Below, in pieces: positions 10,200-59,180 of a stretch of DNA of 64,000 nucleotides (the stretch's first letter is position 1; the number at the start of each line of letters is the position of its first letter). The notes beneath the pieces are model-generated. The model had not been told where the DNA came from. It did not search any database and worked only from the letters and a program-made list of their open reading frames with translations. The stretch is from assembly GCF_002156705.1 (NCBI RefSeq), contig NZ_CP019893.1, positions 1,116,001 to 1,180,000 of the forward strand. The letters run 5' to 3'. A program made the position numbers and the translations under genes. The stretch comes from Natrarchaeobaculum aegyptiacum. GTDB taxonomy: Archaea; Halobacteriota; Halobacteria; Halobacteriales; Natrialbaceae.

Positions 10200-10253
10200 G
10201 AAGGTAGTTTGCCTGCCTGACCGTTCACCACGTTCGTAGATCGGGCTGAACTG

Positions 10254-10283
10254 GTGCAACATTCGCGCCATCTATTCAGCACG
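10254..10283 (-). repeat. 30-bp dispersed repeat, copy b
   Basis: On the minus strand it reads GTGCTGAATAGATGGCGCGA and ends ATGTTGCAC, closely matching copies at 11001-11030, 48447-48476 and 49191-49220. Confidence 0.6.
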
Positions 10284-10318
10284 CGTCGCTCGATCTATCT
10301 TGCAGTTGGCAGAAGAAG

Positions 10319-10416: not shown

Positions 10417-10899
10417 TTAGGACAGTTGTTTCGTCAGTTCGATACTCGGTATCTCCGGTGTTTCGGGGCCACCTGCATCGATTTCACGCTGTTTTTCGTA
10501 TCCGAGTGTTTCGTAGAAGCCAACAGCGTTTAGCGACGCAGGAACGATCAGCTCCTCTACGCCTTCCTGTCGAGCGAGTGTTTCGAGTTCTTCGACGATT
10601 GTGCGCCCGATTCCTTGTCCCGTGTAGTCGGGATCAACAAATGTTGCAGCCAGCACGTTCTCTTTGAGATGGATGCTTCCCCAGCCAACGGTCTCTCCAT
10701 CCAACTCAGCAATAATTGGACGACACGAATCGTCGGTAAACTCATCCTCAGGAATTGCCTCAGCATCTGGCTCAGCGGGTGCCAGAAGCGCAAGCTGTTC
10801 GTCCGTATAGTACTCTTCTCCGTTCTCTCGGAGCGACGCTGATTGAATACGCGCCATTACTGCTGCGTCTTCAGGAGACGCCTCTCGAAGAGAGACCAT
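10417..10899 (-). CDS. GNAT-family N-acetyltransferase
   Basis: A 160-residue acetyl-CoA-dependent transferase. The coenzyme-A binding motif is VDPDYTGQGIGRTIVEELE near residue 95, preceded by the strand AATF, and followed by the typical NAVGFYETLGYEKQ near 128. The substrate cannot be told from sequence. The start is the ATG at 10897-10899 (MVSLREASPED); upstream in-frame codons read into the 30-bp repeat region. It is an isolated gene within an accessory patch. Confidence 0.85.
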   Translation of the reverse strand: MVSLREASPEDAAVMARIQSASLRENGEEYYTDEQLALLAPAEPDAEAIPEDEFTDDSCRPIIAELDGETVGWGSIHLKENVLAATFVDPDYTGQGIGRTIVEELETLARQEGVEELIVPASLNAVGFYETLGYEKQREIDAGGPETPEIPSIELTKQLS

Positions 10900-11000
10900 T
10901 ATGTGAATGAGAAAATAGCTAGAATAATAATTTTCCTTCGATTGAGCAATCCTTCGTCTGTACTGACCGTTCACCAAGTTCGTAAATCAAGCCGAAGACC

Positions 11001-11030
11001 GTGCGACACTCGCGCTCTCTATTCAGCACG
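11001..11030 (-). repeat. 30-bp dispersed repeat, copy d
   Basis: On the minus strand it begins CGTGCTGAATAGAGAGCGCG and ends AGTGTCGCAC. It abuts the integrase fragment at 11042-11160. A CGTTCACCA-containing stretch also found near 10230 and 51436 lies just to its left. Confidence 0.6.
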
Positions 11031-11041
11031 TCTCTTTGAAA

Positions 11042-11160
11042 CTATCGGCATACACGCACGGACGCGTGTACTGGTAGACGATCGTCCGGCCACGAGTTAG
11101 ACTCAACCGATCGAGTTTCGTCGCAAACAGCAGCTTTCGGTCGTACTGATCAACGACGCC
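11042..11160 (-). pseudogene. Tyrosine integrase fragment
   Basis: This 119-base stretch on the minus strand encodes GVVDQYDRKLLFATKLDRLS followed by TRGRTIVYQYTRPCVY. It aligns without gaps to residues encoded by 53290-53408 of the intact integrase. Homology stops abruptly on both sides, with no catalytic HxxR or Tyr segment, so it is a decayed piece of a related integrase. It indicates an earlier integration or rearrangement event here. Confidence 0.75.
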
Positions 11161-11795: not shown

Positions 11796-12752
11796 TCACT
11801 CGCCACTCGAGTCTCGTCTCGCGAGGACGTCCACGTGCCGGACGAACGCCGTCAGTTCACCGGCCTCGAGTTCGCGCTCCCGCCGGTCGCGCCACCGCTG
11901 GCGGGTCCGTTGTTCGACCGTCGACACAGGAACGTCAGCGAGCGCGTCGTCGATCGTCTCGAGCAGGTGGCCGAGGACGACCCGTTCGGCCGATGCGACC
12001 GTAGACGAGCGCTCGTGGGGCCGCAGGACCCAGTCCGACCCACCGACTGCGAGCACGCAGAACGGCTGGTCGTCGCGCTCGAGAGACCCCACGAGTCGCC
12101 TGCCGGCGCGGCTGCCCCCCGGCTCGTCGCGAATCTCGTCCATGTGGCGGTGGTAGAGCCGCTCGAGGCGGTCGTCGAGCGGGTCCACCGGTGCGAAGCC
12201 GGTCGCGCCGTCGTAGGTCAGCGGCGCGTAGCAGAGGCCACCCGGTTGCAGGGCCGACGCGAGCCACGGGAGCGCCCGCTCGAGGTCCACGAGGTCGAAA
12301 ACTGCCGAGACGATGACGGCGTCGGCCCCGGTCCCGTCGGTCGAGACGGTGAAGGCGTCGCCGACCTCGAGGATCACCTCGAGTTCCAGTCCGGGGGCCG
12401 AACCCGACGCCACAGATTGGGGGCGCGAGCGCGCCACCAGTCCGGTCGGCGTTCGCTCGACGGTACAGCCAGCCGCCTCGAGCCAGTCGGGGAGCACCTC
12501 TCGCGCCCGGTCGACGAGGGCCGCCTCGCGGTCGATCAGTCGGTACCGGACCGAACCAGCGAGGACGTTCCGCTCGACGAGGCGGGCGATCATCGTTCCG
12601 ATTCCACCACCGACCTCGACGATCCGAAGGGGCTCGTCGTCCCCCGCCGAGTGCGCTGCCAGCGCCGCCGCGAACTGCTCGAAGACGCGGTCGTCGAGGG
12701 CACGGTCGTCGACCGGCCGTCTGGCCTCGAGGTACGCCCCGAAGGTACTCAC
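11796..12752 (-). CDS. SAM-dependent methyltransferase
   Basis: A 318-residue class I methyltransferase with the SAM-binding loop IVEVGGGIGTMIARL near residue 44 and an acidic motif (YRLIDREAALV) about 25 residues later. Its start GTG (12750-12752) overlaps the stop of the upstream glycosyltransferase by four bases, so the two are translationally coupled. It is the last gene of a seven-gene minus-strand cluster. The substrate is unknown; the neighbours suggest a glycan, lipid or pterin-derived product. Confidence 0.75.
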   Translation of the reverse strand: MSTFGAYLEARRPVDDRALDDRVFEQFAAALAAHSAGDDEPLRIVEVGGGIGTMIARLVERNVLAGSVRYRLIDREAALVDRAREVLPDWLEAAGCTVERTPTGLVARSRPQSVASGSAPGLELEVILEVGDAFTVSTDGTGADAVIVSAVFDLVDLERALPWLASALQPGGLCYAPLTYDGATGFAPVDPLDDRLERLYHRHMDEIRDEPGGSRAGRRLVGSLERDDQPFCVLAVGGSDWVLRPHERSSTVASAERVVLGHLLETIDDALADVPVSTVEQRTRQRWRDRRERELEAGELTAFVRHVDVLARRDSSGE

Positions 12753-13930
12753 AGGCGATCACCGCCGGACGTGTGCCGCTCGAGGCCGCCGCCGGATGAT
12801 CCACGCTCGAGCCGTCCGTCCTTCGGCGTTCCGGACGCCCGATTCCGCTGGCTCCGAGTCACCTGCTGCTCGAGAAACTGCCGAACGGTCCCCATCGTCT
12901 CCTCCCACGTCGGGTGGCACGCCGCCGTCTCGAGGGCGGTCGCGCCCAGCGCCGCGAGGCGGTCGCGATCACTCGCCAGCCGCTCGACGATGGCGGTGAT
13001 TGCGCCCGGCGTGCCCGGTTCGACGAGGTAGCCGTTCCGCCCGTGGTCGACGAACTCGCGCGCCCCGCCGACCGCGCTCGCGATCGGGACGACGCCGTAC
13101 TCCATCGCCTCGAGATACGCCATCCCGAACCCCTCGTAGGTCGCGGGAACGGCGAGGACGTGCTGGCACTCGAGGATCGACGCGAGCCTCGCGTCGCTCA
13201 CCTCGCCGGCGAACGTGACGCGGTCGTCCAGCCCGGCCTCGGCGACCGTCGCGGACACCGACTCCGCGTGTCCGGAATCGGCCTCGAGGCATCCGACGAC
13301 GGTGAGTTCCCACGCGCAAGCCGCCCGGTCGAGGCCCTCGAGCAGCGTCGGGAGCCCCTTTCGCGGGATCACGTTCCCGAGGAAAGCCACCCGGAGCGGT
13401 CCGGCCGTCCGGGCACGCGCCTCGACCTGCTCGACGCCGAGTGCGACCCCCTCGACGCGTCCAGCGGGCGGTGCCACGAGCGTCGGCACGTCGGCGAGTT
13501 TCGCAACCCGATCGCGCGTATCACGGCTCGTACAGACTGCGGCGTCGACGCACCGGAGATAGCGACGCTCGACCGCGGCTTCCACGAGTCGTCGCGGATC
13601 GAGCCGGTGGCGGGACCGACTCGATGGGCCGGACCGCAGCAAGTGCACGAGCGAGACGATTGCTCCGGGACGCTCGAGCCGACCGGTATGGTGCCACAGC
13701 GACGGGTGACAGAGTTCGTCCTGCAGCAGCACGTCGAACGGGCGGTCGAGCCGTTCCCGGACCGACTGTGAGCCCCCATCGAGCAGGTGCCGTCCGTACG
13801 ACCGCCAGGGTAACGCGACGACCTCCACGTCGTCACCCTGTCGCTCGAGGTGGGCGACCAGCCGCCTGTCGTAGCGAAAGCCACCGGAGATTTCCTCGAG
13901 GCCGCCGTAGACGACGAGTCCGACGTGCAC
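12749..13930 (-). CDS. Glycosyltransferase family 4 protein
   Basis: A 393-residue GT-B transferase. The N-terminal acceptor domain starts MHVGLVVYGGLEEISGG. The nucleotide-sugar domain has LRVAFLGNVIPRKGLPTL near residue 199 and the EX7E signature in EGFGMAYLEAMEYG near 285. The last about 35 residues are polar and low in complexity. Start is a GTG at 13928-13930, four bases after the pterin-synthase-like gene. It transfers a sugar from an activated donor to an unknown acceptor within the clustered pathway. Confidence 0.85.
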   Translation of the reverse strand: MHVGLVVYGGLEEISGGFRYDRRLVAHLERQGDDVEVVALPWRSYGRHLLDGGSQSVRERLDRPFDVLLQDELCHPSLWHHTGRLERPGAIVSLVHLLRSGPSSRSRHRLDPRRLVEAAVERRYLRCVDAAVCTSRDTRDRVAKLADVPTLVAPPAGRVEGVALGVEQVEARARTAGPLRVAFLGNVIPRKGLPTLLEGLDRAACAWELTVVGCLEADSGHAESVSATVAEAGLDDRVTFAGEVSDARLASILECQHVLAVPATYEGFGMAYLEAMEYGVVPIASAVGGAREFVDHGRNGYLVEPGTPGAITAIVERLASDRDRLAALGATALETAACHPTWEETMGTVRQFLEQQVTRSQRNRASGTPKDGRLERGSSGGGLERHTSGGDRL

Positions 13931-13934
13931 GATC

Positions 13935-14366
13935 TCAGTCCGAGAGCGCCTCTTCGGTCAACTCTCGTTCGTAGCTTACCCGTGCGACGTCGTCTTCGTC
14001 GATGGCGACCCGGAGCGTCCGGACCCGATCGGACGATATTCGTGGGTCCGCCGCCAGCGAGTCGGCGACGACGCGGGCGAAGTGCTCGACGCTCGGATTC
14101 AGCCCGTCGAAGGCTGGGTGGTCGTTGAGCGTCTGGTCCCGGAACTCCTCGGCCACGTCGTCGACGGCGGCCGTCAGATGGTCGATGTCGACGACGTAGC
14201 CGTAGGCGTCGAGGTCCGGCGAGCCGACGGTCACCTCGAGCGTGTAGTGGTGGGAGTGACGGTCGCCTTCGGGGCCGGGGTCGGGCACCGTGAGGGAGTG
14301 CTGGGCGACGAACGACCGTGAGACCGACACGGTGTACATGCCCCTAGATACAGGCGAGTCGTCCAT
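13935..14366 (-). CDS. 6-pyruvoyl-tetrahydropterin synthase / QueD-like protein
   Basis: A 143-residue T-fold protein. Zinc-ligand histidines appear as FVAQHSL (H23) and HSHHY (H37, H39, H40). The Cys that usually lies a few residues before the HxH motif and serves as the catalytic nucleophile is absent; the sequence there is EGDRHSHH. A second conserved region, DGLNPSVEHFARVVADSL, is present. It may therefore run a different reaction from QueD or PTPS. The ATG at 14364-14366 gives this length; an internal ATG at 14339 (MYTVSVSRSF) is an equally plausible start. It is four bases upstream of the GT4 gene. Confidence 0.78.
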   Translation of the reverse strand: MDDSPVSRGMYTVSVSRSFVAQHSLTVPDPGPEGDRHSHHYTLEVTVGSPDLDAYGYVVDIDHLTAAVDDVAEEFRDQTLNDHPAFDGLNPSVEHFARVVADSLAADPRISSDRVRTLRVAIDEDDVARVSYERELTEEALSD

Positions 14367-14421
14367 AAACGGTCCCCTCGCTCTCAGGAGTTCGATCTCG
14401 GTCTCGGTTTCGATTTCGCTC

Positions 14422-15510
14422 TCACGAACTCTCTATCCCGCTACTCCCATCGTACGTTACCAACACCTGCAGCGTCTCTTCCGGACGCTCCTCGAGCAAG
14501 CGGTAGGCCTCGCCAGCGGACTCGACCGGAACGCGGTGGGTGACCAGCGGCTCCAGATCTAGCCGCTTCAGCCAGTTCCAGGCGATCTCGTGGCGGCGCT
14601 CGCGGTCGTATCGACCTCGGTGTCGGGGGGCGATCGTGCTCACCTGGCTCGAGCGCACGTCGATCCGGTCGCGGTGGAAGCGTCCGCCGAGGTCGACCGA
14701 GACGGGGGTGCGGCCGTACCACGAGCCGACGATCACCCGGCCGTCGTAGCCCGTCGCCGCGATCGCGTCGTCGAGGGCGTCGGGACAGCCCGTCAGTTCG
14801 TAGGTCAGGTCCGCCCGTTCGTCACCGGTCGACGTGAGAACCGCCGCCGGGTCCTCGGCTGGCGGGATCGCCCGGTCGGCCCCGAGCCGTTCGGAGAGGC
14901 GACGACGCTTCGCGTGCAGGTCGACGGTCACGAGCGAATCCAGCGGCGTCTGTGCGAGTATCCCCGTGGTCAACAGCCCGACGACGCCCTGGCCGAGGAC
15001 GACCGCCCGCTCTCCCAGCAGCGGTTCGCCGTCGAGGACGAACGTGACGGCCGACTCCACGTTGGCGAACAGGGCCGCGGTCTCCGTCGAGACGGTCTCG
15101 GGCACCGGGACGAGGTCGGCCGGGTCGGCGAGGAAGTGACTCTCGTGGGGATTGTACGCGAAGACCCGCCGGTCCAGCCACGACGCGGAGACCTCCGCGC
15201 CGACGGCCCGGACGCGACCGACGACGGCGTAACCGTAGGAAAGTGGGTACGACAGGTCTCCCTCGAGCGCGTCGATCGACTCGTCTGCCGGCAGCTCCGT
15301 CGGGGCCTCGTCGCGATAGAGAAGTCCCTCGGTGCCGGCGCTGATGGCCGAGACGGCGGCCTCGACGAGGACCTCGCCGGGACCGGGTTCGGGGACGGGG
15401 CCGCGCTCGACCACGGCGGTTCGTGGCCCGGTGAACGTGACCGTCCGCTGCTGTGGCTCGGCTTCCTCGTCGATGGCCGTCTCGGGGGCCGTTCGGTCGG
15501 AACTGTTCAC
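14422..15510 (-). CDS. Zinc-type alcohol dehydrogenase-like oxidoreductase
   Basis: A 362-residue MDR-superfamily protein. The N-terminal domain has GPGEVLVEAAVSAISAGTEG near 44, resembling BchC/threonine-dehydrogenase-like members without the classic GHE zinc site. The Rossmann domain has AVVLGQGVVGLLTTG near 170, which binds NAD(P). The start is taken as the GTG at 15508-15510 because the upstream frame is low quality. It belongs to the minus-strand cluster and probably performs a redox step on the same intermediate. Confidence 0.82.
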   Translation of the reverse strand: MNSSDRTAPETAIDEEAEPQQRTVTFTGPRTAVVERGPVPEPGPGEVLVEAAVSAISAGTEGLLYRDEAPTELPADESIDALEGDLSYPLSYGYAVVGRVRAVGAEVSASWLDRRVFAYNPHESHFLADPADLVPVPETVSTETAALFANVESAVTFVLDGEPLLGERAVVLGQGVVGLLTTGILAQTPLDSLVTVDLHAKRRRLSERLGADRAIPPAEDPAAVLTSTGDERADLTYELTGCPDALDDAIAATGYDGRVIVGSWYGRTPVSVDLGGRFHRDRIDVRSSQVSTIAPRHRGRYDRERRHEIAWNWLKRLDLEPLVTHRVPVESAGEAYRLLEERPEETLQVLVTYDGSSGIESS

Positions 15511-15661
15511 GCGAATGACTCGTCCACCCGGGACCACTTGGCTATTGTGCGGAGTCTCCCCAGACGCGACGGATATCGTGCGAGTTGCACCTGACGCGAC
15601 ACGGCTATCGTATGAACACCCAGACGCGACTCCCGTGGGACGCCCCAGACACGACTCGAGT

Positions 15662-16513
15662 TCACCGCGACACGCGCGTCGTGACCACGAGCCAGTCCCA
15701 CAGGAAATTCGCCAGAAACGGGACCGCGACGGCCGTGGTGAGCAAGACCGACTGCTCAGCGGTCGTGATCGGTGCGAGCGCGAGCCAGATCCCGAGGAGG
15801 ACGGCCGCCGACACTCCAGCCCGGACCCGACTCGAGGGCAGGTCGCGAACCGGACGCCCCTGTCGCCGTCGCCACCACAGGCTCCCGGCGTAGAGGTACC
15901 GGGCGGCCCCGACCGCGAGGACGGCGATCGATGCTGCTCCCAGCGCGACCACGGCGACGGTCCCCACGAGCGTCGTGAGTGCGTCGAGTTCGGTGTCGAG
16001 GCGCGCACCGAGGTCGGTTTCCGTGCTCGCTCGCCGTGCGACCGTCCCGTCGACGCCGTCGAGGAGCCCCGCCGCGGCGAAGAGCGCGGCAGGAAGCCAC
16101 CCCAGGGGCGCCGTTCCCGTGGCTACGCCGCCCCCCATGAGCATCTCGACGCCACTTCCCGGAGCAGTGGCGATACTCCCCAGTACCCCGACGAAACACG
16201 CGAGGATCGCTCCCCGTGCCAGCGTGATCCACGAGGCGATCGTGAGCGGTTCGGAGGCTCCCCCGCGAGCCGTCCGCTCGATGGTGACCCCCGCGACGAT
16301 CACCACGACGGCGACTGCGAAGCCGATCCAGCCGGCGAACGTGACCGTTCGAGCGGGCCGCCAGCCGATGGTGACCCCGCCAGCGACGAGTGCCGTGAGC
16401 ACGACGAGCACCGTCGCTGCCTCGAGCCAGCGACCGACCCAGGCGTCGATCCCGGATTCGGCCAGCCAGCGTCGCCCTTCGACGTCGTCGGCGGACCGCT
16501 CGTCAGGAGTCAC
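15662..16513 (-). CDS. CDP-alcohol phosphatidyltransferase family protein
   Basis: A 283-residue membrane protein with six or more hydrophobic segments. The family motif is complete at DGVDGTVARRASTETDLGAR followed by LDTELD: DG-x2-AR-x8-G-x3-D-x3-D. It transfers a phospho-alcohol group from a CDP-linked donor to a hydroxyl acceptor, as in phospholipid headgroup synthesis. Start is the GTG at 16511-16513, overlapping the upstream gene by four bases. In this cluster it may link the product to a lipid. Confidence 0.85.
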   Translation of the reverse strand: MTPDERSADDVEGRRWLAESGIDAWVGRWLEAATVLVVLTALVAGGVTIGWRPARTVTFAGWIGFAVAVVVIVAGVTIERTARGGASEPLTIASWITLARGAILACFVGVLGSIATAPGSGVEMLMGGGVATGTAPLGWLPAALFAAAGLLDGVDGTVARRASTETDLGARLDTELDALTTLVGTVAVVALGAASIAVLAVGAARYLYAGSLWWRRRQGRPVRDLPSSRVRAGVSAAVLLGIWLALAPITTAEQSVLLTTAVAVPFLANFLWDWLVVTTRVSR

Positions 16514-16884
16514 GGGGTACGGACCAGCAGAATTGCAAGCACGACGATCAGCGCGATCTGTACGACCTTGTCGACGGCCTCGAGCGGACCGACGTCGCCG
16601 ACGCCCGCCGGCTGAGCGATCACGAGCCAGGCGACGATCTGGGAACCGACGAACGGAATTCCGAGCGCGTAAAGCAGCCGGCGACGGACCTCGAGGGCGA
16701 AGAGCACGAGCGCGCCGGCGACGCCGAGCCCCGCGAGGACGAACGCCACGGCGATCGGGTCCGGGAGGAACGCGAGCCCGAGCACCACGTGGATACTCCC
16801 GGTGACCACGGCGAGACCCACGGCGACCCACTCGAGGCCCGACGCAGTTCCGGTCCTGGTCGAGACGCGTTCCCTGAGTCCCAT
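16510..16884 (-). CDS. Four-helix integral membrane protein (DUF7475-like)
   Basis: A 124-residue protein with four hydrophobic segments and short basic loops, starting MGLRERVSTRTG at the ATG 16882-16884. It contains VTGSIHVVLGLAFLPDP and GIPFVGSQIVAWLV, and resembles small haloarchaeal membrane proteins of unknown role. The four-base overlap with the CDP-alcohol transferase gene implies translational coupling, so it may be an accessory subunit of that enzyme. Confidence 0.65.
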   Translation of the reverse strand: MGLRERVSTRTGTASGLEWVAVGLAVVTGSIHVVLGLAFLPDPIAVAFVLAGLGVAGALVLFALEVRRRLLYALGIPFVGSQIVAWLVIAQPAGVGDVGPLEAVDKVVQIALIVVLAILLVRTP

Positions 16885-16991
16885 CGGCAACGCGTTCGAC
16901 GGCGTCCCAGAAGCCTCTTCGGGTCGTTCGCACGGCTCGTTGGTGTCGTGACGGTTCCTCGGTGCTCGTGACGGCTCGTCGTCACCGTCGA

Positions 16992-17858
16992 CTACGTGAT
17001 GGCCGACGTCGACGTGGGCTCGGCGATCCAGAAGTCATCCTGTACGGCAATTTCGTAGCCTGCGTCCGTCAGCAGTTCCCGACAGACGTCCGGCTCGGCC
17101 CCGTCGAGGCCGTCGCTGTGAGGCTCCAGCAGGATCGTCGGCCGGTGGCGCTCGAGGGTGTCCCGACCACCCCGGAGAACGGACGCAGCCTCGCCCTCGA
17201 CGTCGATCTTGATCACGTCCGGTGGAGCCGCCTCGGCGATGAGGTCGTCGAGTCGTTCGACGGGGACCGGCTCTACCGCCGCCACGTCGGCTTCCCAGCG
17301 GGTCGCACTCGCCCGGTCGAAGCCCGAGAGCTCCGTGTACGTCGAGACGCAGAAGTCACGCTCGCCCGACTCGGCGCCGAGGCCACAGCGTCGAACCGCG
17401 ATCCGATCGCCGAAGCCGTTCGCGCGGACGTTCGCCGAAAGCTGGTCGGCGACCACCGGTGCAGGTTCGACCGCGACGACGTGCCGATCCGGCTCACCGG
17501 CGGCGAGTGCGAGCGCGTAGACGCCGACGTTCGCGCCGACGTCGTAGACGACGCTCTCGGGACCGCAACGCGCCTCGAGTGCGGCGAGCATCTCGTCGCG
17601 TCCGTGGCGGTTGTAGAGTTCGTAACTGCGGACGGTCCCGCCGCGGGTCTGCTGGCGGGTCGCGAGCAGCTCCCGGTCGTAGTTCAGGTGGACCAGCCGG
17701 TAGTAGTTCCCGAGGGCCAGCCGTCGCAGCCGGACGTACAGGGCCCGGCGCACTGACGCGACCGACACGGCAGGGACGACGACAGCGTCCGGGTTGAGTG
17801 TTCCGCCGTTTACCAGTCTGGTCAGCCGGCCCGGCCAGCCAACTCGCTCACCAGTCAT
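16992..17858 (-). CDS. FkbM-family methyltransferase
   Basis: A 288-residue SAM-dependent methyltransferase. The SAM-binding motif is VVYDVGANVGVYALALA near residue 105; the FkbM-type segment DVIKIDVEGEAASVLRGG lies near 222 and ILLEPH after it. Such enzymes O-methylate sugars or polyketides. Start is the ATG at 17856-17858. It is the first gene of the minus-strand cluster and lies divergent from the phosphotransferase at 17941 across an 82-base gap. Confidence 0.83.
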   Translation of the reverse strand: MTGERVGWPGRLTRLVNGGTLNPDAVVVPAVSVASVRRALYVRLRRLALGNYYRLVHLNYDRELLATRQQTRGGTVRSYELYNRHGRDEMLAALEARCGPESVVYDVGANVGVYALALAAGEPDRHVVAVEPAPVVADQLSANVRANGFGDRIAVRRCGLGAESGERDFCVSTYTELSGFDRASATRWEADVAAVEPVPVERLDDLIAEAAPPDVIKIDVEGEAASVLRGGRDTLERHRPTILLEPHSDGLDGAEPDVCRELLTDAGYEIAVQDDFWIAEPTSTSAIT

Positions 17859-17940: not shown

Positions 17941-18918
17941 ATGCGGACGAGCGACGCCGTCGATCACCTCCCCGAACACGTTCGTCGACTCGTGGCCGAG
18001 GTCCTCGAGACGTCCATCAACTCGTGGTGCCGGCCGACCACGGGGTCGGTGTCGGAGACCTACCTGCTCGAACTCGCGGGCGAACCGTCCCACGTCGTCT
18101 GTAAACTCGACGGGGCGAGCGTCTGGACGGGCGCGGTCGTCGAACCGGCCATTCGCCGACTCGTCGCCGAGGGGACGACGCTGCCGGTTCCCGCGGTTCT
18201 GGCGTCGGGACGATTCGCTCCACGTAACACCGATGGAGAGCTGGGGAGCCCAGCCGAGACGACCTCCCAGCGCTCCTGGGCGCTCTACGAGTTTGCCGCG
18301 GGAGAGACTCCGTCGGCGGAACGGGAGTTGCTGAGTCAGTCGACCCGGCGACGACTCGTCGCCGACGCCGGATCGACTCTCGGGCAGTTGCACGCCTGGT
18401 CGAGGGCCGAACTCGAGTTCGATCGAACCGGCGGGCTCGAGCGAGCCCCGGACCATCCAACGGGACTTCGCGTCTGCGACCCGACGCCACCGTCGGCCGT
18501 CGACGCGCTCGTCCCCGTCGTTCGAACGCTGTCGGGCCGCTCTGGGGGGCAGCCGGTGCTCTGTCATGGCGACTACCAGCCCGACAACCTTCTGGTCGAC
18601 CCCGACGGGTCGGTCACGGCGGTCCTCGACTGGGGGAACGCCCACGTCGCCCCCGCGGAGTACGCCGTGGCTCGAGCCGAAGTGCGGTTCGTCGAGAGCG
18701 ATCGCTCGCGCTCCGCGGACGAGCGCTCGCAACTCCGCGAGACGTTTCGCGAGGCCTACCGGGAAGAGACGCGACTCGAACCCGGATACGCAGACCGGGC
18801 GCCGCTGTACAGGGGGCTGTGGCTCGTGCAGTCGGGACTCAACCTCGCGACCGTCGCCCGGACGGCGCGTGGCAGGACGCAACTCCGCCGTCAGTTGTCG
18901 ACGTGGTGGGGGTCGTGA
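17941..18918 (+). CDS. Aminoglycoside phosphotransferase-like (APH-family) kinase
   Basis: A 325-residue protein-kinase-fold phosphotransferase. The catalytic loop is VLCHGDYQPDNLLVDPDG near residue 207 and the metal-binding segment is AVLDWGNAHVAP about 15 residues later. The N-lobe nucleotide-binding Lys is probably the one in HVVCKLDG. The family phosphorylates small molecules such as sugars, choline or antibiotics; no particular substrate is indicated. Divergent from the methyltransferase cluster. Confidence 0.82.
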   Translation: MRTSDAVDHLPEHVRRLVAEVLETSINSWCRPTTGSVSETYLLELAGEPSHVVCKLDGASVWTGAVVEPAIRRLVAEGTTLPVPAVLASGRFAPRNTDGELGSPAETTSQRSWALYEFAAGETPSAERELLSQSTRRRLVADAGSTLGQLHAWSRAELEFDRTGGLERAPDHPTGLRVCDPTPPSAVDALVPVVRTLSGRSGGQPVLCHGDYQPDNLLVDPDGSVTAVLDWGNAHVAPAEYAVARAEVRFVESDRSRSADERSQLRETFREAYREETRLEPGYADRAPLYRGLWLVQSGLNLATVARTARGRTQLRRQLSTWWGS

Positions 18919-47900: not shown

Positions 47901-48252
47901 ACTCGTCCTCGCCGAACTCCTCGATGTCTTTCTTGTTCTCGAAGCCCAGTTTCTCCTCGACCCGGGTTTCGATCGGCAGGCCGTGCATGTCGTAGCCCGG
48001 CCGGTCGGTGACGTCGTACCCCTGCATCCGGAAGAAGCGCAGGAGAACGTCCTTCAGCGACTTGTTCCAGGTGGTCCCCATGTGGGCCGACCCCGAGGTG
48101 TACGGTGGCCCGTCGACGAAGAAGAAGGTCTCACCGTCCGAGCGATGCTCGACCGTCCGTTCGTAGGCGTCGACGTCGTCCCAGTACTCGAATACCCGGC
48201 GCTCGACCGCGTCCGGATCGTACTGGTCGTCGACCTCGCCGAACCTGCTCAT
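44998..48252 (-). CDS. ileS: Isoleucyl-tRNA synthetase
   Basis: A 1084-residue class I synthetase. HIGH motif is HMG at residues 57-59 (PPYTSGSAHMGTTWNKSLKD) and the KMSKS counterpart is MSKSK in GRAMSKSKDILVDPH. The editing domain contains VIWTTTPWTIPANTF. The anticodon-binding C-terminal half has the archaeal/eukaryotic layout. A short low-complexity insertion rich in Gly/Ala/Asp (ADSSANGGGDAAGG) follows PIWVPEGG and is not usual in the family. I place the start at the ATG 48250-48252 (MSRFGEVDDQYDP) rather than eight codons upstream. Confidence 0.95.
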   Translation of the reverse strand: MSRFGEVDDQYDPDAVERRVFEYWDDVDAYERTVEHRSDGETFFFVDGPPYTSGSAHMGTTWNKSLKDVLLRFFRMQGYDVTDRPGYDMHGLPIETRVEEKLGFENKKDIEEFGEDEFIEACKEYADEQLEGLQSDFQDFGVWMDWDDPYRTVAPEYMEAAWWGFSRAADRGLVDQGHRSISQCPRCETGIANNEVEYDDVEDPSVYVKFDLEGREGSIVIWTTTPWTIPANTFVAVDEDGEYVGVRAEKDGEEELLYLAEPKVDDVLSAGRYDDYEIVEELTGADMVGWSYEHPLAEEVPEHPDHEGACEVYTADYVDTHGDGTGLVHSAPGHGEEDFERGTELEFPIFCPVGGDGVYTDGAGKYEGQFVKDADAEITADLETNGNLVAEETITHSYGHCWRCDTGIIQIVTDQWFITITDVKDELLENIEDSEWYPGWARDNRFRDFVEDAPDWNVSRQRYWGIPLPIWVPEGGADSSANGGGDAAGGWDGDMADAIVIGTREELAERVDQDVDPETIDLHKDTVDDLTITEDGTTYTRVPDVFDVWLDSSVATWGTLDYPEDEERFDELWPADLILEAHDQTRGWFWSQLGMATAALGESPYERVLMHGHALMPDGRAMSKSKDILVDPHEAIDRHGRDVMRMFLLSNNPQGDDMRFSWDGMQTMENHLRTLWNVFRFPLPYMRLDEFDPHETTLDAVDEDLELVDEWVLARLQSTKAEMTDAFEEFRPDRALEALLEFVVEDVSRFYVQAVRERMWEEEDSASKEAAYATIYHVLRESVTLLAPYAPFISEEIYGHLTGDAGHPTVHMEDWPAVDDYWVDDQLETDLAYLRSIEEAGANARQQAGRKLRWPVPRVVVAADDDRVAEAVSRHTTLLEDRLNAREIELVSAEDQWEELAYSAEADMSELGPAFGGRAGEVMTALNEARIDEPSLETLTEAVDDVLDGGDELTEEMVSFVTETPEGVAGTAFGHDGDDLGVVYVDTELTDDIESEGYAREVIRRVQEMRKDLELDVEERIALDLEIDDDRVADLVAEREDLIREEVRADELRTVEDGHRKEWEVEDVTMEIAIEAVAAAEASD

Positions 48253-48410
48253 ACCAGACGTGATTCGCTCCGACATTAAAGGGGAATCGGTCCGGGGGGC
48301 GTGAGAGGGACTCGAGCGCTGGCGTCCGTTGTCCCGCCGACTGCGAAAGACGAGGCGGGCGAACGAGGCGTCTGAGGTGACCGATGAGAACGATGAGAAC
48401 GAGCGGAGAC

Positions 48411-48426
48411 GCCTCTGTTGAAATCC
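48411..48426 (+). repeat. IS6-family-like terminal sequence (solo)
   Basis: GCCTCTGTTGAAATCC matches the sequence at 9836-9851 at all but one base, and the similarity continues (TTCAGAGGTGATA versus CTCAAGTGATGATA). No transposase gene accompanies it. Confidence 0.4.
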
Positions 48427-48446
48427 TTCAGAGGTGATACGAACTG

Positions 48447-48476
48447 CCTGCTGAATACACAGCGCGAATGTCGCAC
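48447..48476 (+). repeat. 30-bp dispersed repeat, copy e
   Basis: It begins CCTGCTGAATACACAGCGCG and ends AATGTCGCAC, matching copies at 10254, 11001 and 49191. It lies 20 bases after the IS6-like end. Confidence 0.6.
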
Positions 48477-48583
48477 AAGATTCGACTCAATCTACGACGG
48501 TATTGATCGGTCAGTATAGGCCATCCAGTTACCAAAACTAAATAAAGAAGGTTTATACCCACCCTATATGACATGGTAATTTA

Positions 48584-49021
48584 ATGTCCCTGTCCCGGCG
48601 TGGAGTCCTCCAGCTCAGTGGTGCGATCTGTAGCACGAGTTTAGCTGGGTGTATTGATTTGTCTTGGTCTGATGAACAGGAAGCAAGGCTGACCAAGATA
48701 GAACTTCAGAATCATACTGAGTACGATCAGGTAGTGTTAGTGATCGTGGAAGATAACGGGGAACAGGTGTACGGTGAGACCACGGCAGTTCCGCCTGCTG
48801 AGGGTGATTCACCATCGGTTCGGGAGGTAGAAGACATACCCGACGAACCCGGAGTCTATGACGTTTATTTTAATCTTGCTCAGCGGCCTGAAGATATTGA
48901 AGGCGAGTTTTGGGCTAGGGCTGATAATACAGACATCACTTGCCGTGAATATCGCCTCAATATCAAGCCAGATGATGATAGAGAACCACAGTTTGGCATA
49001 TATCGTTCAGATGGTTGTTGA
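48584..49021 (+). CDS. Tat-exported lipoprotein of unknown function
   Basis: A 145-residue protein starting MSLSRRGVLQLSGAICSTSL: a twin-arginine SRRGVL motif, a hydrophobic stretch and a lipobox LAGC at about residues 20-23, all typical of haloarchaeal Tat lipoproteins. The mature part is small and beta-rich (LTKIELQNHTEYDQVVLVIV), resembling surface-anchored binding domains. It is bracketed by 30-bp repeats at 48447 and 49125-49220. Its DNA is less GC-rich than core genes, suggesting transfer. Confidence 0.72.
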   Translation: MSLSRRGVLQLSGAICSTSLAGCIDLSWSDEQEARLTKIELQNHTEYDQVVLVIVEDNGEQVYGETTAVPPAEGDSPSVREVEDIPDEPGVYDVYFNLAQRPEDIEGEFWARADNTDITCREYRLNIKPDDDREPQFGIYRSDGC

Positions 49022-49124
49022 ATCTCCGTGATGCATAGCCACACCCACTCGCTTTCACTATCCCTGTCTATCGTTCTACAGAACAGTTGATTCATTGGCT
49101 CCGTCGTGAAATAGATGTGGTCGT

Positions 49125-49154
49125 CGTGCTGCACTCACGCTCTGGATGTTGCAC
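49125..49154 (+). repeat. 30-bp dispersed repeat, copy f
   Basis: It begins CGTGCTGCACTCACGCTCTG and ends GATGTTGCAC, nearly identical to the minus-strand copy at 10319-10348. Confidence 0.6.
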
Positions 49155-49190
49155 GCGATCTCTATCAGACACTAGACAGATTGAACGAGA

Positions 49191-49220
49191 CGTGCTGAAT
49201 TGAGAGCGCGAATGTGGCAC
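49191..49220 (+). repeat. 30-bp dispersed repeat, copy g
   Basis: It begins CGTGCTGAATTGAGAGCGCG and ends AATGTGGCAC, matching copies at 10254, 11001 and 48447. Confidence 0.6.
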
Positions 49221-49537
49221 AGGCTGAGGAGCGATCAATGCGGAAGGTCGAATGCTCAGTATAGGGGAAGCAGTACCGGAGCAATCGTCGAATTCTTTAG
49301 TATCTGTCAAAAGTTGCCTGCTGACTATAGGGGATAGAGGATATATCGCCCAGCATTTCCTTCAGAGTCAGCCAGGTTGAAAGCACCAGGGTAGAGATAC
49401 TATTTGACATCCTTGACAGCAATGTAGATAGATTCTGCTACGAATCGGGTCTGAATATTGCGGCTATTCCATCATCAGCGGTGGACCAGCTGGGAGAACG
49501 GCTTTGCTACAGGACGAACTTCGACTGTGCGACCGAG

Positions 49538-49771
49538 TCAGGAGTGTTCTTCGAGATGAATCGATTCATCGCCGTTGATGGTGACTATATAGCCCTCGTA
49601 CGAGAACGTGACCGAAACTTCCGCGGCGGTACACAATGCATCGAGCGCGTCCGGATCGACAACGTCGTACAGCGGTCGCAACTCCTCGACGGGGATCCCC
49701 CTTCGCTGTGCGACGGCCATGACGACTGCAAGACTCACAGATTCAACTGATTCTATTGGATCTGTACACAC
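49538..49771 (-). CDS. HalOD1 output-domain protein
   Basis: A 77-residue stand-alone HalOD1 domain: SLAVVMAVAQRRGIPVEELR, then LYDVVDPDALDAL and the closing strands VSVTFSYEGYIVTING. HalOD1 is a haloarchaea-specific putative output domain, often fused to receivers; single-domain forms are common. The start is a GTG at 49769-49771. It lies three bases downstream of the 66-residue gene on the same strand, so they form a two-gene unit. Confidence 0.75.
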   Translation of the reverse strand: MCTDPIESVESVSLAVVMAVAQRRGIPVEELRPLYDVVDPDALDALCTAAEVSVTFSYEGYIVTINGDESIHLEEHS

Positions 49772-49774
49772 TGG

Positions 49775-49975
49775 TCATCCCTCTTCTTGATCGTCGTATC
49801 TGGCCAGTTCGATTATCTCTACTTCCCACTCGTGGGTTGACCCTCGCGTTCGAAACTCCCAGGCACCGCGCACGTCCACGTCAGCCTCGACGGCCTTCTC
49901 GACCACCTCGGCGAGGGCGGCCTCGAAGTCGTCGGCGCTGGTAATCGAACCGTCACCGGGGTGATCTCGTGTCAT
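49775..49975 (-). CDS. Small conserved haloarchaeal protein
   Basis: A 66-residue acidic protein starting MTRDHPGDGSITSADDFEAA, with a helix (LAEVVEKAVEADVDV) and two strands (AWEFRTRG, HEWEVEIIELARY). No domain is recognised. It is directly upstream of the HalOD1 gene, which suggests a joint role in signalling. Such helix-strand microproteins often occur next to HalOD1 genes, though that is a general impression. Confidence 0.6.
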   Translation of the reverse strand: MTRDHPGDGSITSADDFEAALAEVVEKAVEADVDVRGAWEFRTRGSTHEWEVEIIELARYDDQEEG

Positions 49976-50113
49976 GATGGGTGGGCCACGATCCTCAACC
50001 CGAAGATATGGAAGCTAACCCACGACCACATCCACACAACTGGGTCACACTTCGCGCAGGGCGTTCGGTCCATCCTCACCAAGGGACGCCACACCCATAT
50101 CTCTGCCGTTTTG

Positions 50114-50157
50114 CATGGTACACCATGCTATTTATTCAGAGTTGGTAGACCATGCTG
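50114..50157. promoter_or_regulatory. Palindromic operator flanking a TATA box
   Basis: GCATGGTACACCATGC (50114-50129) is a palindrome with 7-base arms and a 2-base spacer. Its right part, TGGTACACCATGCT, recurs as TGGTAGACCATGCT at 50144-50157, a spacing of 27 bases. Between the two lies the AT-rich box CTATTTATT. The HTH-10 gene starts at 50198. Paired sites on both sides of a TATA box suggest repression or autoregulation. Confidence 0.6.
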
Positions 50158-50197
50158 CCTATCTTTACCCGTCTCGAACTCCAACGCCTAGCAAGGA

Positions 50198-50884
50198 ATG
50201 GCAGTCATCGCGCATCTTCGGGTCCCAGCCGACTCATTTGAGCTCGGCCGGATCCTCGAACTGGAAGCAACCGGGACGATCGAACTCGAAAACATGGTCC
50301 CGCTGGGCGAGAAAGCCGTTCCGTTCTTCTCAGTGAGTGACGCAGTCCGAGAATCGTTCGAGCAAAACGTCGAGAATCACCCGTCGGTCGAACGCATCGT
50401 AGAAGTGACGCGCCACGACGACGAGCGTCTGTATTCGCTGGACTGGAACATCGGCCGCGACGTGTTCTTACAGGGGGTTATCGAACTGCAGGGACAGCTC
50501 CTGAGTGCTACTGGAACGGTCAATACGTGGGAGTTCGAGATCCGGTTTCCCACTCACGAGGCGCTCAGCGATTTTCAGGAATACTGCTCGAACGCCCACA
50601 TTCCCCTCGAAGTCGGACGTATCTACAATCCCGTCCGTCCGGGAACCGGCATGTGGTACGGAGTGACAGAACCCCAACGTGAAACGCTGATGCGCGCTGT
50701 TCAGGGTGGGTACTACTCCATTCCGCGGCGAATGTCCACGCAGGATCTGGCCGATGACCTCGGGATCTCCGACCAGGCCGTCACAGAACGACTGCGCCGG
50801 GCGATCGAAACGCTCACCGAAAACACGCTCATCGCAATGGAAGAGGAACTTGCCGAGGAGTTCGAACAGCCCCAAGAATCCTGA
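50198..50884 (+). CDS. HTH-10 (Bat-like) transcription regulator
   Basis: A 228-residue regulator. The N-terminal about 160 residues are a ligand- or partner-binding domain found with haloarchaeal HTH-10 proteins (AVIAHLRVPADSFELGRILE). The C-terminal HTH-10 has the canonical TEPQRETLMRAVQGGYYSIPRR followed by STQDLADDLGISDQAVTERL. It resembles the Bat (bacterioopsin activator) C-terminal type without a PAS or GAF sensor. It has a strong operator upstream (50114-50157), probably its own target. Confidence 0.85.
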   Translation: MAVIAHLRVPADSFELGRILELEATGTIELENMVPLGEKAVPFFSVSDAVRESFEQNVENHPSVERIVEVTRHDDERLYSLDWNIGRDVFLQGVIELQGQLLSATGTVNTWEFEIRFPTHEALSDFQEYCSNAHIPLEVGRIYNPVRPGTGMWYGVTEPQRETLMRAVQGGYYSIPRRMSTQDLADDLGISDQAVTERLRRAIETLTENTLIAMEEELAEEFEQPQES

Positions 50885-51008
50885 TCGCCACAACCCTCTC
50901 AACCCGAGCGAGAGGACTACTGATCCGGGTGTTACTGAATAACAACCTTGTCCACCATGCAGCGGAAGGAACCGTTTTGGACGCCTGTATAGGTATGTGA
51001 GACTACAC

Positions 51009-51311
51009 ATGGGGTTTGATGACATAACCGAAGCCCTCGGGGGCCGAGCACGGCGGCAGGTACTTGTGGAACTACTGGATCACAATCCAGTGGACCAACC
51101 AGAGGCGGTGACGAAGGATAATGCGCAAGAAGACGAGGTACGGGAGCTGCAGCTTACTCACACACATCTCCCCAAACTCGATGATATGGGCTACATCGTG
51201 TGGGATAGAGACCACAGGACTATCGTAAAGGGGCCAAATTGGGAAGAGATCGAACCGGTGGTTCGATTACTCAGCGACAATAGGGACCAAATCCCCAAGG
51301 ACACGTTCTAA
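51009..51311 (+). CDS. DUF7344-type winged-helix protein
   Basis: A 100-residue protein with an ArsR-like winged helix: ALGGRARRQVLVELLDHNPV, then LQLTHTHLPKLDDMGYIVWD and the wing DRDHRTIVKGPN. This matches the small DUF7344 family common among haloarchaeal regulators. Start is probably the ATG at 51009 (MGFDDITEAL); an upstream in-frame codon at 50997 is also possible. It is 125 bases after the HTH-10 gene. Confidence 0.72.
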   Translation: MGFDDITEALGGRARRQVLVELLDHNPVDQPEAVTKDNAQEDEVRELQLTHTHLPKLDDMGYIVWDRDHRTIVKGPNWEEIEPVVRLLSDNRDQIPKDTF

Positions 51312-51451
51312 CACTCTCAAAGATAACTATGTGTCTTCTGTGAACCCGCGCTGTGTATCATTGTATGGCCGAATACTTCATTCAGATTTGACAGAATTCA
51401 CAGCACTAACTACGCACGTGTAGTGAGCGAGTGGTTCACCAATTTCAGCGT

Positions 51452-51466
51452 GAAACAAACAGAGCC
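51452..51466 (-). repeat. IS6-like terminal sequence in inverse orientation
   Basis: On the minus strand it reads GGCTCTGTTTGTTTC, matching the first nine bases of the solo ends at 9836 and 48411. The opposite orientation is what would be expected for the other terminus of such an element. Confidence 0.35.
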
Positions 51467-51468
51467 GT

Positions 51469-51499
51469 CGTGCTGCACTAATCCTCTATATTCAGCAGG
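51469..51499 (+). repeat. 30-bp dispersed repeat, diverged copy h
   Basis: It begins CGTGCTGCACTAATCC and ends TATATTCAGCAGG. The left half matches the family; the right half is a reverse copy of the left-end type, making a small inverted repeat. Confidence 0.4.
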
Positions 51500-51638
51500 C
51501 GGCTTTTGACATATTTCAGACAGACCGATAGCTGCGTCGGTAACTACTTTCCCTATACTGACTGATTTGGGACACTGTATAGTGCCGGTCAGTCATCTCT
51601 GCGTGTGCACGTATGGAACTGAGGACTGGTCCGCCGAA

Positions 51639-52055
51639 TTAGAGCGTGTCAAACGATTTTATTACATCACTCGTTGAGTACGTATCGACTAGGTCCTGTG
51701 TATCGAAGTCAGAATCGTCGCTCCAAATAGCAGCATCGTTGGCGATCGCACACGCGAGGTACAACACATCGTCAGGGTCGGTGTCTCCGATTGCTTCGTC
51801 TGCCCTCTCGATAGCCGGGTAGAAGTCGTCGGCAGGAACGACCTCAATGTACTGGAACAGGAGGTCGATAAATTGTGCCACTCGGTCCGGTTCCATTCCG
51901 GATTTCTCTACGATCAGGCCTTCGTAGTTTTCGACTTCGTCGTGGACAAATGCGGGCGTCAGGAGATCTGGTTCGAGTGTCACAATGAGCTCCCGCGTCT
52001 TCGAATCAGCGATGAGTGCAGAAATAACGACGTTGGCGTCGATGACCAGCTTCAT
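51639..52055 (-). CDS. PIN-domain ribonuclease toxin (VapC-like)
   Basis: A 138-residue PIN-domain protein. Acidic active-site residues occur in VIDANVVISALIAD (Asp5), in the helix around DEVENYEGL, and in DTDPDDVLYLACAIANDAAI with SDDSDFDTQ. It is preceded by an RHH-type antitoxin gene ten bases upstream, the classic VapBC layout. VapC toxins cleave tRNA or rRNA. It lies close to the integrase, as toxin-antitoxin pairs often do in mobile islands. Confidence 0.83.
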   Translation of the reverse strand: MKLVIDANVVISALIADSKTRELIVTLEPDLLTPAFVHDEVENYEGLIVEKSGMEPDRVAQFIDLLFQYIEVVPADDFYPAIERADEAIGDTDPDDVLYLACAIANDAAIWSDDSDFDTQDLVDTYSTSDVIKSFDTL

Positions 52056-52064
52056 TCGTCGAGT

Positions 52065-52295
52065 CTACGCCGATTCTTCGTCGACGCGCTTGCGTCCACG
52101 TTCGTTGATCTTGTCGGCGATTTCCTGCACGTCGCGCCCGGAGAGTTCGCTCTCGCTGGTGAGTTCGTCCATCATCTCAAGCGCCTCTATCTTCTCCTGG
52201 ATGGCCTGTCGCGTGACCTCGCTCCAGTTGATCTCCGGGTGCTGTTCCATCCGCTCTTTGAGGGCGTCGTCCACGTTAACCGTGATACTGGGCAT
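52065..52295 (-). CDS. Ribbon-helix-helix antitoxin (VapB-like)
   Basis: A 76-residue protein, MPSITVNVDDALKERMEQHP, with an N-terminal strand and two helices (EINWSEVTRQAIQEKIEAL) of ribbon-helix-helix type, followed by a C-terminal toxin-binding helix (GRDVQEIADKINERGRKR). It precedes the PIN-domain gene and probably neutralises it and represses the shared promoter. Start is the ATG at 52293-52295. Confidence 0.8.
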   Translation of the reverse strand: MPSITVNVDDALKERMEQHPEINWSEVTRQAIQEKIEALEMMDELTSESELSGRDVQEIADKINERGRKRVDEESA

Positions 52296-52644
52296 ACAGG
52301 AATCTATGTGGACACAGAATACTGTGTCTTTCGGTGCATCCCGTGTTAAGCGACATTGAGTTCCTCGCACTAGATAGGACGGGAAAGGTCGAGTCGATAG
52401 ACCTACAGAGTGTCAAATTCCACTGGCTCAGAACCCTGCACATTCTGGATGATCCCCTCACCCGGAAATAAGTTAAGTGGCAAATTTAGACGGTTCAGTA
52501 CCCAAGGGCCGATTTTACGGGTGCCATGGGCCCTGACGGGGAACGTCCAGAATCTTCCGGGCTCTCAGCCAGCTGTTAGTGCACGCGAGAAACGGTCAAA
52601 CAGGCGTTTAGAACTCGCTGTCTTCGGCCTTCAGTGAGAGAACC
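52296..52644. other. Intergenic region between antitoxin and integrase
   Basis: I see no gene. It holds the divergent promoters of the VapBC-like pair and the integrase, with AT-rich AAATAAGTTAAGTGGCAAAT (52468-52487). An attachment site would be expected near here, but no tRNA gene or clear direct repeat could be recognised. Confidence 0.45.
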
Positions 52645-53658: not shown

Positions 53659-53755
53659 GGCAGAACCGAGTCAATAATTATAATCACGGTTAAATTTTCC
53701 CTACGTATGATGATGTAAAACTCGCCAGACCAAATATAAAATTCTCAAACGAGAG

Positions 53756-58880: not shown

Positions 58881-59013
58881 ACCTCCATCAATACCTGTTA
58901 TCAAATTAAACCTACTGGCTCAACATATATTTGGTACTTCCCGAACGTCGCTTTGTGAGCTGTGCTGAGTCATAGACATCCGGAGTGAACGCTGGTACAG
59001 TAATTAAGTGAGG

Positions 59014-59173
59014 GAACCAGCACTTGACGAGAAGATCATCCTCCCAACCACAACCGAAGACGATGCTCGAACCGAATTATTGAACCCGGAGCGCGCTTGG
59101 CAAATTCTAACATTCTTCGATCAATATCGCTACGCGCGCTTAGAACAATAGTTGCCCTCATGAGCGGGATCTG
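59014..59173 (+). pseudogene. Integrase remnant with internal deletion
   Basis: Bases 59014-59146 align to 52939-53074 of the intact integrase (both encode the stretch with KIILPTTTEDDAR and LEQYRYARL-like sequence). Bases 59153-59173 then match 53410-53430 exactly (TGCCCTCATGAGCGGGATCTG), so about 335 bases between have been lost. Both copies point the same way and enclose the three-gene operon. It cannot encode a working enzyme. Confidence 0.8.
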
Positions 59174-59180
59174 TGTTCCT

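Follow-up and report, generated by a model that had tools for sequence, protein, structure and literature searches.

QueD (PTPS-I) and the mammalian-type PTPS (PTPS-II) are T-fold proteins with zinc histidines and a conserved Glu near the C terminus, and in QueD the active-site motif reads CxxxHGH. For the subfamily PTPS-III the motif is given as ExxHGH in a passage of PMC5041015, and PTPS-IV of COG0720 is presented in an excerpt of PMC5445326 as the FGPAQ group, which has PF00925 (there called FolE2) and RibD-C (PF01872) as gene neighbours. A further described system is the ArfA-ArfB-ArfC entry route to riboflavin and F420, of which ArfA is GTP cyclohydrolase (GCH) III; deletion of GCH III in Haloferax volcanii leads to riboflavin auxotrophy, as stated in a passage of PMC8305020. 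Here we analyse a gene cluster in a stretch of 64,000 nt from the haloarchaeon Natrarchaeobaculum aegyptiacum (assembly GCF_002156705.1, contig NZ_CP019893.1, positions 1,116,001 to 1,180,000), which is hereafter called the window. Its six genes at 11796-16890 code for a DUF7475 membrane protein, a CDP-alcohol phosphotransferase, a medium-chain dehydrogenase (MDR), a PTPS-like T-fold protein, a family 4 glycosyltransferase (GT4) and a class I SAM methyltransferase (MT), and form one functional unit. This unit represents, on the haloarchaeal side, a cluster that spans both domains; it differs from the bacterial side in the active site of the T-fold protein and in the partner GTP cyclohydrolase. 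In searches of open-access literature, no paper was recognised as giving a product to this conserved unit, whose marker, the PTPS-like gene, was detected in 171 out of 292 genomes from the haloarchaeal class and also occurs in bacteria of at least three phyla; the initial annotation, made from the sequence alone, had likewise known of no assigned product.

Conservation of the gene set in haloarchaea and bacteria

Forty loci of 20 kb were taken from the 171 genomes in a non-random choice by best matches and family spread, and when their ORFs were clustered together with those of the window, the six core families turned out to be the six most widespread clusters. Around the marker, tblastn found the MDR gene in 34, the MT gene in 30, the CDP-alcohol phosphotransferase gene in 28, the GT4 gene in 27 and the DUF7475 gene in 26 of the 40 loci, besides GCH III in 16 and a Gfo/Idh/MocA oxidoreductase in 10. 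The FkbM methyltransferase gene, which is the seventh in the row in the window, was seen in two of the 40; its membership in the core, initially assumed, is thereby ruled out, and it is regarded as an occasional accessory. Phylogenetic profiles were obtained for 30 genomes with and 30 genomes without the PTPS-like gene, hand-picked from the 292. The MDR (E <= 1e-40) is encoded in 29 of the 30 PTPS-positive and in none of the 30 PTPS-negative genomes (Fisher p about 5e-16), the MT (E <= 1e-10) likewise in 29 versus none, and the CDP-alcohol enzyme (E <= 1e-10) in 26 versus none. Weak co-conservation of the genes, which had been named at the outset as a reason to abandon the idea of a cluster, is contradicted by these very strong profiles. 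In two genomes (G060, G200) the genes for MDR, CDP-alcohol enzyme and MT are grouped tens of kb away from the PTPS-like gene, and since they are retained although unlinked, the functional linkage is strong even without adjacency. It is almost certain that the genes form one pathway. On pNG700 of Haloarcula marismortui, the PTPS match lies in two pieces between MDR and GT4 and is missing from the gene table, and an MftE-like creatininase gene (L187, 2223-2981) is located near the CDP-alcohol gene, as in bacteria. Six genomes (G038, G145, G153, G201, G231, G256) contain two cluster-type PTPS matches each, which are either second copies or split genes.

A scan of a genome collection with the MDR alignment yielded 582 loci, the best 80 of which make up the bacterial set; they were compared over 9 kb around the MDR gene, with some contigs ending early, and belong to Proteobacteria, Actinomycetota and Gemmatimonadota. 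PTPS is present in 78 of these 80 loci, GT4 in 74, MT in 71 and the CDP-alcohol phosphotransferase in 62, followed by RibD-C (54), a flippase-like LPG_synthase_TM protein (40), a creatininase (39) and GCH II, also named RibA (38). FkbM (15), cytochrome b (6) and inositol monophosphatase (1) are less frequent, and DUF7475 was found in none of the 80 within the 9 kb. All five genes other than DUF7475 occur on plasmids of Microbacterium, Rhizobium, Thiodictyon, Streptomyces fungicidicus and Peteryoungia, and their order is largely shared with the window (CDP-alcohol phosphotransferase, MDR, PTPS, GT4, MT), the bacterial CDP-alcohol gene often being on the opposite strand. On the Rhizobium and Peteryoungia plasmids, the FkbM gene adjoins the CDP-alcohol gene. 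A partial set is present in Palleronia (L079), there together with inositol monophosphatase, and in a Rhodobacteraceae strain; the exceptions are two Streptomyces plasmids (L075, L081), which carry a lone PTPS-IV gene without the rest of the set. The record of the Arthrobacter locus (L084) has no annotation. The cluster is the archaeal branch of a gene set common to bacteria and no haloarchaeal peculiarity. Furthermore, a cytochrome b gene adjoins the cluster on the plasmids of Rhizobium (L076), Thiodictyon (L077) and Peteryoungia (L083), which is a hint that the cluster product may be redox-active.

Active site of the T-fold protein and conserved residues of the other enzymes

The window protein belongs to the PTPS superfamily, as it scores 86.3 bits with PF01242 (gathering score 22.4), and it stays at 43.5 bits with the QueD model TIGR03367, which has a cut-off of 89.25 bits. 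It keeps the zinc histidines H23, H37 and H39, whereas Glu33 aligns with the Cys of QueD from E. coli (3qn0) and, in the same alignment, Arg76-Asp77 occupy the place of the Asp-His pair of QueD. This bears out the initial description of a PTPS-like protein with the zinc histidines but without the catalytic Cys; a Cys supplied by another loop, the objection considered at that time, no longer applies, because the number of cysteines in the whole chain is zero and therefore no other loop can contribute one. The window motif is ExxxHSH instead of CxxxHGH of QueD, and it differs from that of PTPS-III as well, since its Glu is placed one residue earlier, at the Cys position. A separate QueD with the motif KCARPHGH is encoded elsewhere in the genome, adjoining a gene that resembles QueE by eye, and the window protein is therefore a paralogue. 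Every one of 53 aligned haloarchaeal sequences (52 distinct relatives and the window protein) has E33, H23 and H37, and 52 have H39; a Cys is present somewhere in 22 of the relatives, but in none of them at position 33. The bacterial cluster homologues read G31 P32 A33 Q34 in 76 of 76 rows and have A39, and thus no third zinc His, in 76 of 76. Judged by this signature, the bacterial cluster T-fold proteins are the published subfamily PTPS-IV of COG0720.

PTPS-IV, which includes SCO6650 (3D7J) of Streptomyces coelicolor, resembles the window protein in its gene neighbours (MDR, GT4, MT and a CDP-alcohol enzyme) and in the absence of the catalytic Cys, although the own locus of SCO6650 in S. coelicolor was not among the loci compared for neighbours. 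The window shows the gene set and order of the PTPS-IV type (MDR-PTPS-GT4-MT with the CDP-alcohol phosphotransferase), and among solved structures SCO6650 comes closest to the window protein, in sequence (5.3e-8) as well as in fold (TM 0.81/0.86); the structure model of the window protein has a pLDDT of 91.6. However, PTPS-IV carries FGPAQxxHGAT without the third His, whereas the haloarchaeal proteins have GPExxxHSH with three zinc histidines and Glu at the Cys position, and in the window the FGPAQ signature is replaced by DPGPEGDRHSH. The neighbourhoods differ, too, as the bacterial clusters pair with GCH II and RibD-C and the haloarchaeal ones with GCH III. The combination of GCH II (PF00925) and RibD_C (PF01872) is found in many bacterial loci and is missing from the window; RibD was seen in none of the 40 haloarchaeal loci, in which GCH II was not queried. 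Glu124, which we take to be the pterin-anchoring Glu, is conserved in all 76 bacterial sequences and in 52 of the 53 haloarchaeal ones. In the inspected plasmid records the T-fold protein of the cluster is labelled as 6-carboxytetrahydropterin synthase, an annotation which the active site, as far as its residues can tell, contradicts.

The CDP-alcohol phosphotransferase has an intact motif DxxDGxxAR...GxxxDxxxD (D152...D177; DGVDGTVARRASTETDLGARLDTELD), and each of its eight key residues is shared by at least 95% of the aligned sequences, 30 from haloarchaea (the window sequence among them) and 60 from bacteria. Its top model is archaetidylinositol phosphate synthase, under the cut-off. The MDR shares the fold and the NAD(P) domain with BchC and the polyol dehydrogenases, but scores below each listed equivalog cut-off (tdh, bchC and polyol dehydrogenase models), and according to the alignment it has Ser57 where the zinc-dependent relatives carry the Cys of the catalytic zinc, so that the hallmark of zinc-dependent MDR alcohol dehydrogenases is lacking. 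S57 is shared by at least 95% of the aligned sequences in both the haloarchaeal set (41) and the bacterial set (73). The usual GHE motif was not seen in the window MDR; by eye, YGY is found at 92-94. The nearest folds are threonine and sorbitol dehydrogenases, and the structure model of the MDR has a pLDDT of 84.7. GT4 contains the E-x7-E motif as E266...E274. Among the columns that reach at least 95% conservation in archaeal as well as bacterial rows are the CDP-alcohol motif, the E-x7-E pair of GT4 and 38 positions of the MDR.

GTP cyclohydrolases and a putative pathway

GCH III is located near the PTPS gene in the 16 haloarchaeal loci mentioned above, whereas a single-copy gene would be expected there by chance in about 0.6% of loci. 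By manual count, two GCH III matches are present in 40 of the 292 genomes, and 34 of these 40 have the PTPS-like gene, compared to 137 of the remaining 252 (p 2e-4, with related species not being independent). In a midpoint-rooted tree of 37 hand-picked GCH III rows, in which L078 forms a long branch of unsure placement, 9 members of a clade of 10 (support 100/99) are cluster-adjacent and the other 27 rows hold 12 adjacent copies. A simple single-origin scenario for the cluster GCH III is rejected on this distribution, in which part of the adjacent copies form a separate paralogue clade. The ArfA (GCH III) homologues beside the haloarchaeal clusters recall the ArfA-ArfB-ArfC route, as do the GCH II, creatininase and RibD-C genes that often accompany the bacterial ones; the difference is that here they are coupled to MDR, T-fold, GT4, MT and CDP-alcohol enzymes, and that the creatininases are not ArfB by score. 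Since the unrelated GCH II and GCH III stand beside the same downstream genes, both would mark one pathway, and since one or the other, in bacteria also RibD-C, recurs alongside, the precursor, initially proposed to be a pterin or a sugar-derived compound, is narrowed to a ring-opened GTP product. This entry point turns a vague cluster into a concrete pathway proposal that is open to testing.

Several features of the bacterial enzymes bear on the first steps. The cluster GCH II of S. fungicidicus has Met at the position of Tyr105 of the E. coli enzyme, and 42 cluster GCH II proteins from 92 loci are divided into 22 with Met or His and 20 with Tyr at this position. For SCO6655, which presumably belongs to the same cluster in S. 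coelicolor, Met at the Tyr105 position reportedly makes the enzyme stop at the formylaminopyrimidine FAPy, and the GCH III reaction stops at FAPy, too. A creatininase is encoded nearby for 22 of 22 non-Tyr but 14 of 20 Tyr RibA proteins (p 0.007), a link that is confounded by ancestry, because all 22 come from actinobacteria and the creatininases next to them closely resemble one another; an actinobacterial locus with Tyr RibA (L142) lacks a creatininase. It is a possibility that the creatininase acts as ArfB-type FAPy deformylase, but the model test failed: seven creatininases (six bacterial, one from a haloarchaeal plasmid) reach at most 37 bits with the ArfB model NF033501 (cut-off 180), L110 giving no ArfB match, and they are MftE-like with 107-147 bits, under the cut-off of 172. 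The five RibD-like proteins that were scored match the reductase part only and have no deaminase domain. The genome of the window contains one GCH III, one ArfC-type reductase and one creatininase.

From the genes, their co-occurrence, their linkage and their motifs we infer a pathway by which the six core genes would lead from GTP to a single product, an overall explanation that we regard as evenly balanced between right and wrong. The product would have a GTP-derived diaminopyrimidine or pterin-like head, which carries a sugar and methyl groups and is attached through a phosphodiester bond, probably to a lipid. First, a GTP cyclohydrolase would open the guanine ring to yield FAPy or the aminopyrimidine APy, and this enzyme would be the housekeeping GCH III encoded elsewhere in the genome of the window, an in-cluster GCH III in other haloarchaea and GCH II in bacteria. 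Deformylation and reduction of the RibD-C/ArfC type would then lead to 2,5-diamino-6-ribitylamino-pyrimidinone phosphate. In the third step, the zinc-less MDR may oxidise or reduce the polyol side chain, while the T-fold protein may hold the 2-amino-4-oxo heterocycle via Glu124, in haloarchaea also via the metal and Glu33, and reshape or close it without the retro-aldol reaction of QueD and PTPS. Subsequently, GT4 would add a sugar and MT, plus FkbM where present, would methylate the compound. Finally, the CDP-alcohol phosphotransferase would attach the alcohol through a phosphodiester bond, in the simplest case to archaeol supplied as CDP-archaeol, resulting in a membrane-bound conjugate. An origin of the product in GTP ring-opening is probable, and it is fairly likely that the T-fold protein acts on the ring-opened heterocycle. 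For a membrane-linked phosphodiester the chances are about equal either way, and the exact chemistry of the MDR and T-fold step is put forward as a tentative guess. The compound initially predicted, glycosylated, methylated and lipid-linked, agrees with the gene set and with the flippase-like neighbour in 40 of the 80 bacterial loci, except that FkbM is not part of the core.

A bolder version, which we consider improbable, is a GCH I-independent pterin route common to archaea and bacteria that ends in a pterin lipid. GCH II or III would open GTP, RibD-C or ArfC would reduce the ribosyl chain and the MDR would re-oxidise C2', so that the two redox steps would give the ketone that GCH I forms by Amadori rearrangement; the T-fold protein with its Glu and metal would close the pteridine ring, and GT4, the methyltransferases and the CDP-alcohol enzyme would finish the membrane lipid. 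The cluster may bring to light a novel class of membrane conjugates that carry a heterocycle, and it may resolve what PTPS-IV does.

Several observations weigh against a GTP-derived product of the six genes. No GTP cyclohydrolase is encoded inside the cluster of the window itself, and 24 of the 40 haloarchaeal loci showed no GCH III. RibD-C, creatininase and LPG_synthase_TM were found in none of the 40 with bacterial queries, the creatininase query being from Streptomyces, and in many actinobacterial loci RibD-C was not seen within 9 kb. As the creatininases are well under the ArfB cut-off, the deformylase step is weak. Moreover, one genome (G076) has the PTPS-like gene without MDR, MT and CDP-alcohol phosphotransferase, and three others (G004, G034, G091) gave no match for the latter. 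GT4 was not found in 13 of the 40 loci, and therefore glycosylation may be optional or performed by other enzymes. The archaeal and bacterial T-fold proteins may also differ somewhat in their chemistry, because the bacterial members have lost the third zinc His.

Among the alternatives, a sugar or cyclitol phosphoglycolipid survives best, although we think it unlikely. In this reading the substrate oxidised by the MDR would be a sugar or an inositol phosphate, the CDP-alcohol enzyme would make an archaetidyl-polyol, and GT4 and the methyltransferases would decorate it, while the T-fold protein would have drifted to a non-pterin substrate and the GTP cyclohydrolase would be a neighbour for other reasons. 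This is consistent with polyol and scyllo-inosose dehydrogenases among the relatives of the MDR, with archaetidylinositol phosphate synthase as best, albeit sub-cut-off, model of the CDP-alcohol enzyme, with the Gfo/Idh/MocA oxidoreductases in 10 of the 40 haloarchaeal loci and with the inositol monophosphatase in Palleronia and in one of the 80 bacterial loci. However, it leaves the recurrence of the unrelated GCH II and GCH III and of RibD-C unexplained, and equally the conservation of Glu124, presumably the pterin anchor. Somewhat less likely still is a pterin glycoside made from ordinary dihydroneopterin, supplied by GCH I or MptA, similar to the pterin glycosides already known, with the linked GCH II and GCH III serving something else. 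T-fold members do handle pterins, SCO6650 is said to retain pterin-like binding residues, and GT4 together with methyltransferases would suit a decorated pterin. But the linked cyclohydrolases are GCH II and III (GCH I was not searched in those loci), no GCH I is present in the genome of the window (MptA and FolE2 were not tested), and the catalytic residues of QueD and PTPS are lost.

It is very improbable that PTPS-IV functions in F420 synthesis, a role claimed as unpublished in a passage of the 2016 review PMC5041015 and compatible with GCH III supplying both F420 and riboflavin. CofH-type matches are present in all 30 PTPS-negative haloarchaeal genomes, Haloferax volcanii among them (none of these 30 matches reaches the curated cut-off, and 18 extend over part of the profile only), and CofH (E <= 1e-20) is absent from 15 of 16 cluster-bearing proteobacterial genomes, the completeness of which is not stated. 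It is present in Thauera (L120) and in all four actinobacterial genomes with the cluster. On this distribution a co-occurrence of CofH with the cluster is not borne out, and the F420 claim is not supported. A generic surface-glycan or lipid island of loosely assorting genes, brought together by chance or regional clustering, is hardly credible. GT4, methyltransferases and CDP-alcohol enzymes are indeed common in surface-polymer islands and FkbM is not conserved, but the profiles of 29 of 30 versus 0 of 30, which include unlinked copies, and the recurrence of the set in bacteria of three phyla speak against loose assortment.

Layout of the cluster and other features of the window

The initial list of seven genes in one direction holds, as all ORFs are open throughout and the families agree (Table 1). 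The gene pairs FkbM/DUF7475, CDP-alcohol phosphotransferase/MDR and MDR/PTPS are separated by 101, 151 and 55 nt, respectively, whereas DUF7475/CDP-alcohol phosphotransferase and GT4/MT overlap by 4 nt and PTPS/GT4 has a gap of 4 nt, so that three of the six junctions are of the tight four-base kind that had been noticed before.

Table 1. Genes of the cluster and further features, with positions in the window
Feature	Position	Strand	Remarks
Class I SAM methyltransferase (MT), 318 aa	11796-12752	-	no named subfamily; weak sub-cut-off Methyltransf_12/25 (Pfam); no match to NCBIfam models
GT4 glycosyltransferase, 393 aa	12749-13930	-	PF00534 4.6e-28
PTPS-like T-fold protein, 143 aa	13935-14366	-	PF01242 2.1e-24; likelier start ~14339
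MDR dehydrogenase, polyol/BchC/threonine dehydrogenase branch, 362 aa	14422-15510	-	PF00107 2.8e-10
Array of four 12-mer copies	15559-15655		directly upstream of the MDR start
CDP-alcohol phosphotransferase (CDP-OH_P_transf), 283 aa	15662-16513	-	PF01066 2.1e-12
DUF7475 small membrane protein, 126 aa	16510-16890	-	PF24287 1.6e-9, above cut-off; start TTG or nearby ATG
FkbM methyltransferase, 288 aa	16992-17858	-	TIGR01444 1e-27, above cut-off
APH-type kinase	17941-18918		divergent from the cluster
Direct repeat copy, ~83 nt	10217-10299		diverged
GNAT acetyltransferase	10417-10977	-	lower-GC stretch
Direct repeat copy, ~83 nt	10963-11046		diverged
Low-GC stretch	48000-64000		GC 0.44-0.54
Tyrosine integrase	52645-53658	+	in the low-GC stretch
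Three overlapping genes	53756-58904	-	no Pfam or PADLOC match
SIR2_2 protein	59226-60695	+	resembles PADLOC candidate PDC-S25
DDE transposase	61213-62541	-	

The 12-mer copies before the MDR gene (GTCGCGTCTGGG on the gene strand) are 83-100% alike and spaced by 30, 30 and 25 nt; by eye, none was seen in the matching stretch of Natronorubrum bangense (L073). An operator array or a decayed repeat are possible explanations. Scans of the window for sigma-70 promoters and terminators gave nothing useful for an archaeon, and the window contains no Rfam match and no tRNA. None of the 40 sampled loci showed the APH-type kinase gene next to the cluster. The low-GC stretch, compared to 0.63-0.71 in nearly all other parts of the window, is likely a mobile or defence island. 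On the other side of the cluster, the two direct repeat copies flank the acetyltransferase gene.

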